A stretch of DNA of 64,000 bases, taken from NCBI RefSeq assembly GCF_000960475.2, contig NZ_JZDQ02000020.1, positions 1 through 64,000 on the forward strand, read 5' to 3'. The stretch is from Nocardioides luteus. Lineage in GTDB: Bacteria > Actinomycetota > Actinomycetes > Propionibacteriales > Nocardioidaceae. This document shows, in pieces, positions 4,210 through 7,514 of this stretch. Position numbers and translations under genes: made by a program. Under the pieces are notes generated by a model. That model was not told the DNA's origin. It worked only from the letters and a program-made list of their open reading frames with translations, and did not search any database. How positions within the stretch are numbered: position 1 is the first letter of the stretch; each line of letters begins with the position of its first letter.

Positions 4210-4833
4210 TCAGGTACGTGGCCCGCTGACGCCGTGCTCGATGACGCCCTCGGCGACCTGGCGCATCGAGAGCCGCAGGTCCATCGCGGTCTTCTGGATC
4301 CACCGGAACGCCTCGGGCTCGCTCAGCGTCAGCCCCTCCTGCAGGATGCCCTTGGCCCGGTCGACCGCCTTGCGGGTCTCCAGCCGGTCGGTCAGACCGG
4401 CGACCTCCTTCTCGAGCTGGGCGAGCTCCTGGAAGCGGCTCACCGCCAGCTCGATCGCGGGCACCAGATCGGTGATGTTGAACGGCTTGACGAGGTAGGC
4501 CATCGCCCCCGCGTCCCGGGCCCGTTCCACCAGGTCGCGCTGGGAGAACGCGGTCAGCATGACCACCGGGGCGATCCGGTCGCGCGCGATCGCCTCCGCC
4601 GCCGCGATCCCGTCGAGCACCGGCATCTTCACGTCGAGGATCACCAGGTCGGGTCTGTGCTCGGTGGCCAGCTCGATGGCAGCCTTGCCGTCGCCGGCCT
4701 CACCGACGACCTCGTAACCCTCCTCGGTGAGCATCTCCTTGAGGTCCATCCTGATCAGGACTTCGTCCTCGGCGATGACGACCGTACGCCGCGCCTGGGT
4801 CTCCGGGGTGCTGCTGGGGTTGCTCTCCGTCAC
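4210..4833 (-). CDS. pdtaR: ANTAR-domain response regulator (PdtaR-like)
   Basis: Two-component response regulator that, in the Rv1626/PdtaR family, binds RNA hairpins through a C-terminal ANTAR domain to control antitermination or translation. The receiver domain occupies residues about 18-130, with acidic pocket AEDE, phospho-acceptor in LVILDVKMPVLDG, conserved Thr in VMLTAFS and Lys in YLVKPF. The ANTAR helices follow (ETRKAVDRAKGILQEGLTLSEPEAFRWIQ). The GTG at 4833 was chosen because a TAGTCT box ends six bases before it, fitting a leaderless transcript; an in-frame GTG at 4839 would lie upstream. It is monocistronic, between livH and the tRNA. The cognate kinase (PdtaS) is not in the window. 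Confidence 0.9.
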   Translation of the reverse strand: MTESNPSSTPETQARRTVVIAEDEVLIRMDLKEMLTEEGYEVVGEAGDGKAAIELATEHRPDLVILDVKMPVLDGIAAAEAIARDRIAPVVMLTAFSQRDLVERARDAGAMAYLVKPFNITDLVPAIELAVSRFQELAQLEKEVAGLTDRLETRKAVDRAKGILQEGLTLSEPEAFRWIQKTAMDLRLSMRQVAEGVIEHGVSGPRT

Positions 4834-4839
4834 GAGCAC

Positions 4840-4845: not shown

Positions 4846-4910
4846 GGCCATCACGGGCACGTCCCGGTGCAGTGATTCCGCCCACGGTCCGGTAAGTTTG
4901 GCGAATGCCA

Positions 4911-4926
4911 GGCCCGCTCGCGGGCC
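4911..4926 (+). other. Short hairpin immediately upstream of the tRNA
   Basis: GGCCCG-CTCG-CGGGCC forms a perfect 6-bp stem with a four-base loop and ends five bases before the tRNA 5' end. It would lie in the precursor leader next to the RNase P site. A weak TAAGTT box at 4892-4897 could be the promoter -10. Confidence 0.4.
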
Positions 4927-4931
4927 GGAGA

Positions 4932-5007
4932 GCCCCGGTACTCCAACGGCAGAGAGGGCGGTCTCAAACACCGTATAGTGTCGGTTCGAATCCGACTCGG
5001 GGCACCA
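4932..5007 (+). tRNA. tRNA with CAA anticodon (Leu-type decoding), short variable loop
   Basis: A full cloverleaf of 73 bases plus encoded CCA can be folded by hand: acceptor GCCCCGG/TCGGGGC (one G-T), three-pair D stem CTC/GAG with loop CAACGGCAGA, anticodon stem GCGGT/ACCGT, loop CTCAAAC (anticodon CAA at 4965-4967), five-base variable loop ATAGT, T arm GTCGG-TTCGAAT-CCGAC, discriminator A. CAA reads UUG (Leu). The D loop has the GG-CAGA spacing seen in leucine tRNAs and A73 also fits Leu. Bacterial tRNA-Leu, however, normally has a long variable arm, and this one has the short class I form. A HTH/LAGLIDADG gene starts 53 bases behind the CCA. A tRNA identity other than Leu cannot be excluded. 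Confidence 0.85.
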
Positions 5008-5060
5008 GATTCGTTCGCACGTTCCATCGTGATGTCGGTGGTCGCAGGCAGACTACGACC

Positions 5061-5804
5061 GTGTACACAGCTCGTGTTCGCGCCGATGCGCTCGCGCTCC
5101 TCCGGCAGGGCGACTCGCTGTCGGCTGTGGCACGCGCGACAGGTGTCGCAAGATCCACCATCCGTGAGTGGAGGGACTGCGAGCCGCGCAACCGACCCGG
5201 CGCCTGCCCGCGGTGCGACGCACTGCCGATCGACCAGGAGGCGTACGCGGCTCTTCTCGGCTTCTACCTCGGCGACGGCCACATCGCGAGAGCCGCGCGC
5301 TACTACTTCATCCGGATCTCGTGCGACCTGGCCCATCCTCGGGTCATCGACGATGTAGTCGACCTGCTCGGCCGGATCAGGCCAGGCAGCAACGTATTCA
5401 TCGTCAGGAAGCCCGGCTGCGTGGACGTTCAGTTGAACTGGCAGCACTTGCCCTGCCTCTTCCCGCAGCACGGTCCCGGTCGCAAGCACGAGCGCAAGAT
5501 CGTGCTGGAGCCGTGGCAGCAGGACATCGTGTCAGCCCACCCCGGCCCGTTCCTCCGCGGGCTGTTCCATTCGGACGGTTGCCGAGTGGCGAACTGGGCG
5601 ACTCGGATCGTCGCCGGAAAGAAGAAGCGCTACGAGTACGGGCGCTGGCAGTTCGTCAACCACTCCGACGACATCCGCGACCTCTGCACCTGGGCGCTCG
5701 ACCTGGTCGGGATCCCCTGGCGCCAGTCCTCCTGGAAGACGATCAGCGTCTCGCGCCGCGAGGCGGTCGCGGCGCTCGACGCACTGATCGGTCCGAAGAC
5801 CTAG
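5061..5804 (+). CDS. HTH plus LAGLIDADG-type protein directly downstream of a tRNA
   Basis: A protein of 247 residues. Residues about 8-35 form a helix-turn-helix (LRQGDSLSAVARATGVARST followed by IREWRD), then a CPRC pair, then two LAGLIDADG-like blocks: ALLGFYLGDGHI near residue 70 and FLRGLFHSDGC near residue 165, each with the acidic residue used for metal-dependent DNA cleavage. A conserved middle block reads CLFPQHGPGRKHERKIVLEP. I know this architecture as a widespread, uncharacterised actinobacterial family. The open frame continues upstream through the tRNA, so the GTG at 5061, the first plausible start after it, was chosen. Co-transcription with the tRNA is likely. The stop overlaps the pyk stop on the other strand by four bases. 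Homing endonuclease or DNA-binding regulator are both possible. Confidence 0.75.
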   Translation: MYTARVRADALALLRQGDSLSAVARATGVARSTIREWRDCEPRNRPGACPRCDALPIDQEAYAALLGFYLGDGHIARAARYYFIRISCDLAHPRVIDDVVDLLGRIRPGSNVFIVRKPGCVDVQLNWQHLPCLFPQHGPGRKHERKIVLEPWQQDIVSAHPGPFLRGLFHSDGCRVANWATRIVAGKKKRYEYGRWQFVNHSDDIRDLCTWALDLVGIPWRQSSWKTISVSRREAVAALDALIGPKT

Positions 5805-7270
5805 CCCTTGCGCTCGTAGGCCGGCGCGACCTCGTTGATCGCGTCGCCGATGCGGTGGATGCGCAGGGCGTTGGTGGAGCCGGGGATGCCGGGAGGCGAG
5901 CCGGCGATGATGACGACGAGCTCGCCCTCCTCGACCCGGCCGAGCTTGAGCAGGTTCTCGTCGACCTGGCGGACCATCTCGTCGGTGTGCTCGACCTCGT
6001 CGGTGCGGAAGGTCTCGGTGCCCCAGCTGAGCGCGAGCTGGCTGCGTACGGCATCGGAGGGGGTGAAGGCGAGCAACGGGATCGCGCCGCGCAGCCGGGA
6101 GAGGCGGCGGGCGGAGTCGCCGGAGGTGGTGAAGGCGACCAGGTATTTCGCGCCGACCCGGTCGGCGACCTCGGCGGCGGCCTTGGCGATGACGCCGGAG
6201 CGGGTGTGCGGGTCCCAGTCGATGCGGCTGAGCTCGGCGGCGGCGGAGCCGTCCCGGGAGAGGGCGTGGCGCTCGGTGGCGGCGATGATGCGCGCCATGG
6301 TCTCGACGGTGTGGATCGGATACTCCCCCACGCTCGTCTCGGCGGAGAGCATCACCGCGTCGGCGCCGTCGAGGACGGCGTTGGCGACGTCGTTGGCCTC
6401 GGCGCGGGTGGGCGCCGGGTTGGAGATCATCGAGTCGAGCATCTGGGTGGCGACGATGACCGGCTTGGCGTTGAGGCGGGCCAGCTCGATGATCCGCTTC
6501 TGCAGGAACGGCACCTCCTCGAGCGGGCACTCCACGCCGAGGTCACCACGGGCGACCATGAACATGTCGAACGCGGCGATGACCTCGTCGAGGTTGTCGA
6601 TCGCCTGCGGCTTCTCGATCTTGGCGATGACCGGGACGACGCGCCCCTCCTCGTCCATGATCTTGCGGACGTCCTCGTAGTCCTTCGCGTTGCGCACGAA
6701 GCTGAGGGCGACCATGTCGACGCCCAGCTTGAGGGCGAACCGGAGGTCCTCCTCGTCCTTCTCGGACAGGGCCGGCACGGAGACGGCGACGCCGGGCAGG
6801 TTGATGCCCTTGTTGTTGGAGACCGGCCCACCGACCAGCACCTCGGTGTGGACGTCGGTGTCGTCGACCGCGGTGACCCGCAGGCGCAGCTTGCCGTCGT
6901 CGATCAGGATCGGGTCGCCGACCTTCACGTCGCCGGGCAGGCCCTTGTAGGTCGTCCCGCAGATCTTGTCGGTGCCGGTCACGTCCCGGGTGGTGATGGT
7001 CCAGGCCTGACCTCGGTGGAGCGTGGTCGATCCCTCCGCGAAGCGCTCGAGGCGGATCTTCGGGCCCTGCAGGTCGGCGAAGATGCCGACGCTGTGCCCG
7101 CTCGCCGCAGCCGCCTCCCGCACCAGCGCGTAGTTGCTGGAGTGGTCGTCGTGGGACCCATGGCTCATGTTCATCCGGGCCACGTCCATGCCTGCGTAGA
7201 CGAGCTCGCGGATGCGACGCTCCGTCCCGACGGCGGGTCCCAGGGTGCAGACGATCTTCGCTCTTCTCAC
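5801..7270 (-). CDS. pyk: Pyruvate kinase
   Basis: Converts phosphoenolpyruvate and ADP to pyruvate and ATP in glycolysis, in the cytoplasm. The protein has 489 residues, a normal length. Motifs seen: start KIVCTLGPA, MNMSHGSHDDH phosphate-binding loop, the catalytic Lys block VIAKIEKPQAI, MVARGDLGVECP, and TQMLDSMI. The effector-binding C-terminal domain is complete. The open frame extends 23 codons further upstream, but the GTG at 7270 matches the family N-terminus (VRRAKIVCTLGP) and has a TAGTCT box eight bases before it. Its 3' end overlaps the convergent HTH/LAGLIDADG gene by four bases (shared CTAG). Confidence 0.95.
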   Translation of the reverse strand: MRRAKIVCTLGPAVGTERRIRELVYAGMDVARMNMSHGSHDDHSSNYALVREAAAASGHSVGIFADLQGPKIRLERFAEGSTTLHRGQAWTITTRDVTGTDKICGTTYKGLPGDVKVGDPILIDDGKLRLRVTAVDDTDVHTEVLVGGPVSNNKGINLPGVAVSVPALSEKDEEDLRFALKLGVDMVALSFVRNAKDYEDVRKIMDEEGRVVPVIAKIEKPQAIDNLDEVIAAFDMFMVARGDLGVECPLEEVPFLQKRIIELARLNAKPVIVATQMLDSMISNPAPTRAEANDVANAVLDGADAVMLSAETSVGEYPIHTVETMARIIAATERHALSRDGSAAAELSRIDWDPHTRSGVIAKAAAEVADRVGAKYLVAFTTSGDSARRLSRLRGAIPLLAFTPSDAVRSQLALSWGTETFRTDEVEHTDEMVRQVDENLLKLGRVEEGELVVIIAGSPPGIPGSTNALRIHRIGDAINEVAPAYERKG

Positions 7271-7278
7271 GGGAGCCC

Positions 7279-7284
7279 AGACTA
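7279..7284 (-). promoter_or_regulatory. Putative -10 box of pyk
   Basis: TAGTCT, the same hexamer as upstream of pdtaR, lies eight bases before the pyk GTG. That predicts a leaderless or nearly leaderless message. Confidence 0.35.
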
Positions 7285-7514
7285 CCCCTCTGGATCGTTC
7301 AAACCAGCACCCGGACCACGTCCTGATCAGGCCGTTCATCCACGATTTTCGCCCTGGTCGACGTCGGATGTCGTCCCTCTACGCTGGGCCCGGCGCGAGG
7401 TCGCCGGCGGCTAGCCGCTCACCGCGGGCCCGGGCAATGCACGTGTGCCACAAACTCGTCGCCACAAGTGTGTACGAACTCTGTCGGATCCTCCGATCCG
7501 AGGGCTGAGACCCG

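Follow-up and report, generated by a model that had tools for sequence, protein, structure and literature searches.

How does a bacterium come to read a leucine codon with a tRNA that lacks the long variable arm of its kind? tRNA genes count as some of the slowest to change, and bacterial tRNA-Leu is regarded as having a nearly fixed long arm. The window analysed here, a stretch of 64,000 nucleotides from the soil bacterium Nocardioides luteus, carries on its forward strand at positions 4932–5007 a gene that ARAGORN calls tRNA-Leu(caa) and that Rfam RF00005 matches over 4932–5004 (52.2 bits, E = 2.5e-8). It consists of 73 bases followed by an encoded CCA. Direct reading gives a 7-bp acceptor stem, U33, A37, A73 and a T-stem of GTCGG/CCGAC, with the anticodon CAA at 4965–4967, from position 34 of the tRNA, and a variable loop of five bases, ATAGT, at 4975–4979, which is also seen in the alignments. 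A first-pass annotation had described this 73-base CAA tRNA with U33, A37, A73 and the ATAGT loop, and all three lines of evidence (ARAGORN, Rfam and direct reading) bear it out; that observation stood, while the endonuclease gene next to the tRNA, treated below, had gone unmentioned. The window tRNA has in common with class II bacterial tRNA-Leu the leucine anticodon, A73, the locus and the reading of UUG as leucine. Unlike them, it has the five-base loop in place of the long arm that marks class II tRNA-Leu, and its D stem differs, having three pairs and a C13·A22 mismatch.

This mismatch is common to all 36 class I Leu(CAA) genes examined in Nocardioidaceae, and pairs 10–25 and 11–24 of the D stem are preserved in the same 36 genes through compensated changes. 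Free folding of the 76 bases was unremarkable (z −1.2) and did not return the whole cloverleaf. When 40 loci were searched with a covariance model made from 16 class I Leu(UAA) genes, the window tRNA scored 84.7 bits, far above the other tRNAs of its genome, of which the next were its own Leu(UAA) with 60.1 bits and a tRNA with 55.1. The body of the window tRNA is likely to be that of a class I leucine tRNA family which replaces the ordinary class II gene in situ. The idea that a base error hides a long arm was not upheld, because 65 of 149 Nocardioidaceae genomes match the same class I layout, so the shape is not an assembly error.

The genome assembly (5.76 Mb in 86 contigs, 97.9% complete) has 48 tRNA matches, only one of which has the anticodon CAA, and the 76-base sequence occurs in it a single time. 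According to ARAGORN, the other leucine tRNAs are class II Leu(CAG), Leu(GAG) and Leu(UAG), together with one odd Leu(UAA) of 79 bases, which completes the inventory of leucine tRNAs that the first-pass annotation had called for. That annotation had named a separate class II Leu(CAA) elsewhere as a result that would support an odd role; no occurrence of the class II Leu(CAA) pattern was found through the genome, and the two forms are mutually exclusive in the family. A hidden second gene was also rejected on the ground that single-contig, 100% complete genomes of the genus (e.g. G029) likewise have class I alone. One LeuRS gene lies above the family cut-off. As a side observation, the lowest tRNA score of the genome (40.1 bits) belongs to a tRNA-Gln(UUG) of 80 bases with a long variable region (L046, G000:C36:53999-54077), and N. 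turkmenicus and Nocardioides sp. YR527 each have a match with the same score.

We then asked what UUG encodes, using alignment columns from three genes of the loci gathered: those for the response regulator (RR), pyruvate kinase and the endonuclease. In class I genomes 74 of 105 UUG codons fall in Leu-majority columns, as do 54 of 64 in class II genomes; the class I share (70%) is somewhat lower (p = 0.04), with the remainder mostly in Val and Ile columns. For comparison, the Leu-majority shares of other codons in class I genomes are 87% for CUC, 84% for CUG, 3% for GUG and 15% for AUG. The column comparison for class I genomes favoured no amino acid other than leucine at UUG. It thus gives no support to a tRNA charged with a different amino acid, one option of the first reading. 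PDB alignments added little to rejecting it: of the UUG codons of DnaE, 821 aligns with Leu and 362 with Cys or Glu, codon 422 of pyruvate kinase aligns with Leu or Ile, and a third UUG-containing gene queried against the PDB gave no match. UUG is a rare codon: in a crude gene list it accounts for 71 of 1587 leucine codons, 44 of the 71 lying in three spurious-looking frames. A purely non-translational role, another early suggestion, is unlikely because the class I and class II forms exclude each other. The option of a genuine short-armed leucine tRNA held: the gene is the sole Leu(CAA) among the 48, and UUG behaves as leucine. Sequence comparison thus supports a functional leucine tRNA that alone in the cell carries anticodon CAA and is presumably charged by LeuRS.

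The two body plans occupy one locus. Among the 149 Nocardioidaceae genomes, the Leu(CAA) patterns were class I only in 65, class II only in 71, neither in 13 (mostly incomplete assemblies) and both in none; the class II pattern matched 72 genomes, one match (G081) being discounted since no tRNA could be seen there by eye. Each of 27 named genomes of Nocardioides, Streptomyces and related genera has exactly one Leu(CAA), which is class I in 16 and class II in 11. In the window, the left neighbour (4210–4839, reverse strand) is a reading frame kept in relatives, a response regulator that we take to be ANTAR/PdtaR-like. The conserved right neighbour (5801–7339, reverse strand) is recognised from its reading frame, its relatives and a PDB match as pyruvate kinase, convergent with the endonuclease gene. 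Among the loci read, one or both of these genes flank Leu(CAA) in 30 of 30 with the class I form and in 28 of 30 with the class II form. The class I pattern was also found in 23 of 346 Actinomycetota genomes from several families, one of them presumably mycobacteria, and often again near an RR-like gene. On the sequences compared, the class I shape is a recurrent allele, repeatedly exchanged with class II at one chromosomal spot. At Streptomyces class I loci (for instance among L081, L085, L089 and L168-L173), a short CCTTCGATTCCAAGG-like inverted repeat stands 3' of the tRNA and is followed by a terminator-like hairpin; the repeat is mostly missing after class II tRNAs of Streptomyces.

Directly downstream of the window tRNA lies a gene for a protein of 247 amino acids (5061–5804, forward strand; GTG start assigned from relatives, stop codon 5802–5804), with relatives, Pfam, alignment and a structural model all indicating a helix-turn-helix (HTH) joined to a LAGLIDADG fold. 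The N-terminal HTH covers residues 4–40 (5070–5180, forward strand; Pfam HTH_23, 1.3e-7) and appears as helices in the model. By alignment, the two LAGLIDADG motifs, both on the forward strand, are LLGFYLGDGHI with Asp72 (5253–5285) and FLRGLFHSDG with Asp172 (5550–5579). Both aspartates are invariant in 41 of 41 aligned relatives, an alignment that took intact copies only and excluded seven short or broken and two altered ones. The window protein itself falls slightly below the cut-off of Pfam LAGLIDADG_3, which 35 of the 41 proteins match at E 0.01. The AlphaFold model (mean pLDDT 91.8) found LAGLIDADG endonucleases as its best Foldseek matches (I-Tsp061I, 2.2e-8), and VIA Z was about 16 to I-DmoI (159 residues) and 15.7 to WhiA. 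The fold and the two acidic motifs are common to I-DmoI and other monomeric LAGLIDADG homing endonucleases; unlike I-DmoI, the window protein lies outside any intron or intein, has the extra N-terminal HTH and neighbours a tRNA-Leu gene. By its motifs and predicted fold, it is probably a homing endonuclease. Two further features of this interval were seen. A GTCGGTGG-like motif (5040–5050) between the tRNA and the endonuclease start recurs in many endonuclease-holding Nocardioidaceae loci, and the reading frame of the endonuclease extends upstream without a stop across the tRNA gene (4905–5804), as at several other loci, probably an effect of high G+C.

The endonuclease family is closely linked to tRNA genes. 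When a database was scanned with the window protein, 28 relatives came up, of which 27 have tRNA-Leu(CAA) directly upstream; the remaining one (L079) is cut by a contig end. In the 346 Actinomycetota genomes a profile search found 28 copies, the window copy included, spread over 27 of the genomes, and all 28 lie 4–117 bases from a tRNA: 27 from tRNA-Leu (21 CAA, 3 UAG, 2 CAG and 1 UAA) and one from tRNA-Trp(CCA). The chance that one locus falls within 1 kb of a tRNA-Leu is about 0.3%, assuming about five Leu genes per 4 Mb. The copies stand 3' of the tRNA in 16 cases and 5' in 12, on either strand. Since the tRNA gene is the constant feature of these loci, we infer that it is the target of the endonuclease. 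Presence of the nuclease is patchy: 107 Leu(CAA) loci have 48 near full-length copies, 8 fragments and 51 without any, one locus (L049) has the gene inverted, and 35 of 70 class I genes are currently without nuclease. In Streptomyces, similar endonucleases adjoin both class I and class II tRNAs (e.g. L085 and L090), therefore the enzyme alone does not fix the class. Moreover, a class-specific N-terminal half was considered as proof that the protein reads the tRNA and was rejected: it holds among intact proteins of Nocardioidaceae (11 linked to class I against 9 linked to class II) and fails in Streptomyces, and it is explicable by linkage because the N-terminal half stands nearer the tRNA.

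How often the class changes was judged on a protein tree of RR and pyruvate kinase from 107 loci. The tree needs 28 class changes, at least 10 of them forced by well-supported branches; it is weakly resolved, with 52 of 104 inner branches open, and its loci were gathered by class-specific searches. Shuffled class labels needed 30.9 changes on average, and 70 of 500 shuffles were as low as 28. The class label on the flanking-gene tree is thus close to random. Among disjoint nearest pairs of loci, the class differs in 13 of 22 with a nuclease copy or remnant at both loci, in 5 of 10 with one at a single locus and in 2 of 14 with none at either (13/22 against 2/14, Fisher p = 0.014).

The changes are also local. 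Nocardioides sp. YR527 is the nearest relative by flanking proteins (RR 98.6% and pyruvate kinase 97.6% identical); at its locus the tRNA is class II and the endonuclease gene is broken. DNA identity between the two is about 95% until about position 4880, then drops and is regained near 5700; the diverged stretch (approximately 4893–5650, between flanks of about 95% identity) takes in the tRNA and most of the endonuclease gene. N. turkmenicus has an RR that is 100% identical and a class I Leu(CAA), yet its tRNA is just 76% identical. A comparison of 47 tRNA genes with those of N. turkmenicus found 38 identical and the others at least 92.5% so, except Leu(CAA) with 76% and Leu(UAA) with 63%. 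Against YR527, 37 are identical, and those below 90% are Leu(CAA), Leu(UAA), Thr(UGU) (67%), Val(UAC) (76%) and Leu(UAG). In 40 of 45 close locus pairs the RR coding sequence is better conserved than the tRNA. The diverged tRNA-Val(UAC) of YR527 (L195) stands near Trp and Asn tRNAs, perhaps in a foreign cluster, and no nuclease was seen among the listed reading frames around it.

A second, unrelated nuclease family accompanies other changing tRNAs. The Leu(UAA) of the window genome adjoins a gene for a 162-aa HNH protein (Pfam HNH_3). At the same locus N. turkmenicus has a class I Leu(UAA) in opposite orientation and no HNH gene; the flanks are 94% identical, and between them lie 729 bases in the window genome versus 109 in N. 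turkmenicus. A 78-base version of Leu(UAA) with the HNH gene is also present in another member of the genus (L304) and in another family (L303). We read the sequences as a Leu(UAA) and HNH cassette that would have replaced the relative's tRNA at this locus. HNH relatives are present in 59 of 394 genomes of the class (77 match rows); 59 loci were read, most other rows being second copies near a read locus, and each of the 59 has a tRNA within 1 kb of the HNH gene. For the 39 fuller matches these are 38 Leu (35 UAG, 3 UAA) and one Arg, and the 35 Leu(UAG) comprise 19 class I and 16 class II. The 20 partial matches, considered as a generic negative control, did not serve as one, all of them being beside tRNAs as well: 17 Thr(UGU), 2 Leu(UAG) and one Arg(GCG). 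In YR527, an HNH_3 gene lies 33 bases downstream of the diverged Thr(UGU), which shares 93.6% identity with the window genome in its downstream flank and has an upstream flank that is not conserved. Two tandem HNH genes stand by tRNA-Leu(UAG) in many Streptomyces-like genomes (L305-L320 region).

Phages and viral contigs contain similar neighbours. A search with the window protein matched none of 72,556 plasmid and 50,697 phage records. The LAGLIDADG profile found seven distant relatives in tRNA arrays of viral contigs, of which two (L364 and L365) look like near copies; a tRNA lies within 161 bases or overlaps in all seven, the nearest tRNA is Leu in six, and three are accompanied by a class I-sized Leu(CAA). 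In Gordonia phage GodonK, an HNH gene begins three bases after a 76-base tRNA-Leu (codon CUA), with a 75-base tRNA-Leu for UUG close by, and Rhodococcus phage Francesca has a tRNA-Leu(taa) 38 bases before an HNH gene. In Mycobacterium phage Bonray (L300), class I-sized Leu(GAG) of 74 bases and Leu(CAA) of 75 bases stand side by side. In view of these nuclease–tRNA neighbours, phages may be a source of such cassettes. The available text of PMC6582537 describes a cluster of tRNAs, phage-like in character, that includes an HNH gene as well as a tRNA-Leu(TAG) with a short loop.

Taken together, we think it likely that homing-endonuclease cassettes replace tRNA genes while carrying a substitute tRNA, presumably by cutting. 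The replacement unit would be a short cassette consisting of a tRNA gene and a free-standing homing endonuclease. The endonuclease would cut the resident tRNA gene of a recipient without the cassette, and recombination within the conserved flanks would mend the break with the incoming cassette as template. The incoming tRNA would be too different from the resident one to be cut and would still read the codon, so that the cell survives the loss of its own tRNA gene. The nuclease would then decay and disappear, while the new tRNA would stay until another round begins. Cutting, a cut site, the resistance of the carried tRNA and the direction of transfer are what we infer here; no cut site of the endonuclease was found. 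About even chances may be given to the wider proposal of cleave-and-rescue, by which homing endonucleases of two or more families (LAGLIDADG and HNH) in Actinomycetota and their phages specialise on rare-codon tRNA genes, destroy the resident gene and install a reshaped, cut-resistant tRNA of the same decoding, with repeated rounds flipping leucine tRNAs between class II and class I.

The arrangement agrees with intronless homing in that the nuclease gene lies beside and not inside its supposed target, with patchy and decayed copies. In the accessible accounts of T-even phages (SegB, T4 tRNA region), a small nuclease gene near tRNA genes biases the inheritance of its own tract; unlike that system as described there, the present one concerns bacterial chromosomes, LAGLIDADG and HNH types and single essential-codon tRNA genes, with the resident tRNA replaced. 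In tRNA-dependent lysogeny (Guerrero-Bustamante and Hatfull 2024, PMC10865867), as far as the available text goes, a mobile element knocks out a tRNA gene of its host and supplies a substitute of the same isotype; it does so with an integrase and a whole prophage, whereas here the element would be a one-gene nuclease and the substitute stands at the site of the lost tRNA. The available portions of PMC7609411 and PMC4932002 do not describe tRNA replacement by nuclease cassettes, and no report of tRNA replacement by homing-endonuclease cassettes was found in the published papers searched, few of which were from subscription journals.

Homing is supported by the exclusion of the two forms at one locus, the commoner class change where a nuclease is present, the two unrelated nuclease families, the decay of the nucleases and the local tracts. 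Against it stand the two nuclease-free pairs out of 14 that differ in class, the many class I genes now without a nuclease, the diverged Val(UAC) and Thr(UGU) of YR527 and the fact that Streptomyces enzymes accompany tRNAs of either class. Since the codons of Leu(CAA), Leu(UAA) and Thr(UGU) are rare, relaxed constraint may also contribute to the diversity. An unlikely alternative, though the strongest of the rivals, is that the diversity of tRNA alleles serves to evade RNases that cut tRNAs (toxins, anticodon nucleases, phage defence), with the endonuclease genes as passengers. It would suit the class I-sized tRNA-Leu of phages (Bonray 74 and 75 bases, GodonK 76 and 75), and cleavage-resistant phage tRNAs are a known theme in the accessible parts of PMC13096335 and PMC10865867. 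However, it predicts neither two nuclease families directly beside the changing tRNAs nor more class changes where nuclease copies exist. Slightly less probable is ordinary horizontal transfer without nuclease-driven homing, in which tRNA genes act as insertion hot spots and linked genes travel by homologous recombination. tRNA genes are indeed well-known integration sites, and the flanks are conserved enough for recombination, but the frames listed by the tRNA, in a non-systematic set of loci, show no integrase and only the small nuclease, and the tRNA body, normally very conserved, is the part that has diverged more than the adjacent coding sequence in those 40 of 45 close pairs. A domesticated DNA-binding regulator of the tRNA or pyruvate kinase gene is the least probable: WhiA, a transcription factor of actinobacteria, also combines an HTH with a LAGLIDADG fold and is as similar in VIA Z as many endonucleases are, but the window protein differs from WhiA in its N-terminal HTH, in motif acids invariant throughout the 41 intact copies and in a patchy, decaying gene (51 of 107 loci empty), which moreover stands on either side and either strand of tRNA genes at different loci and has relatives in viral contigs.

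Under the preferred reading of replacement by homing-endonuclease cassettes, the cell's only reader for a codon alters its body plan between near relatives, and this alteration is linked to selfish-looking nucleases. If the cutting is true, these cassettes would be natural drives that bear a rescue copy of the gene they destroy. They would also readily supply leucine tRNAs that are unusual yet functional, along with nucleases specific for tRNA genes, and would give a reason for the high diversity of some tRNA genes in actinobacteria and their phages.
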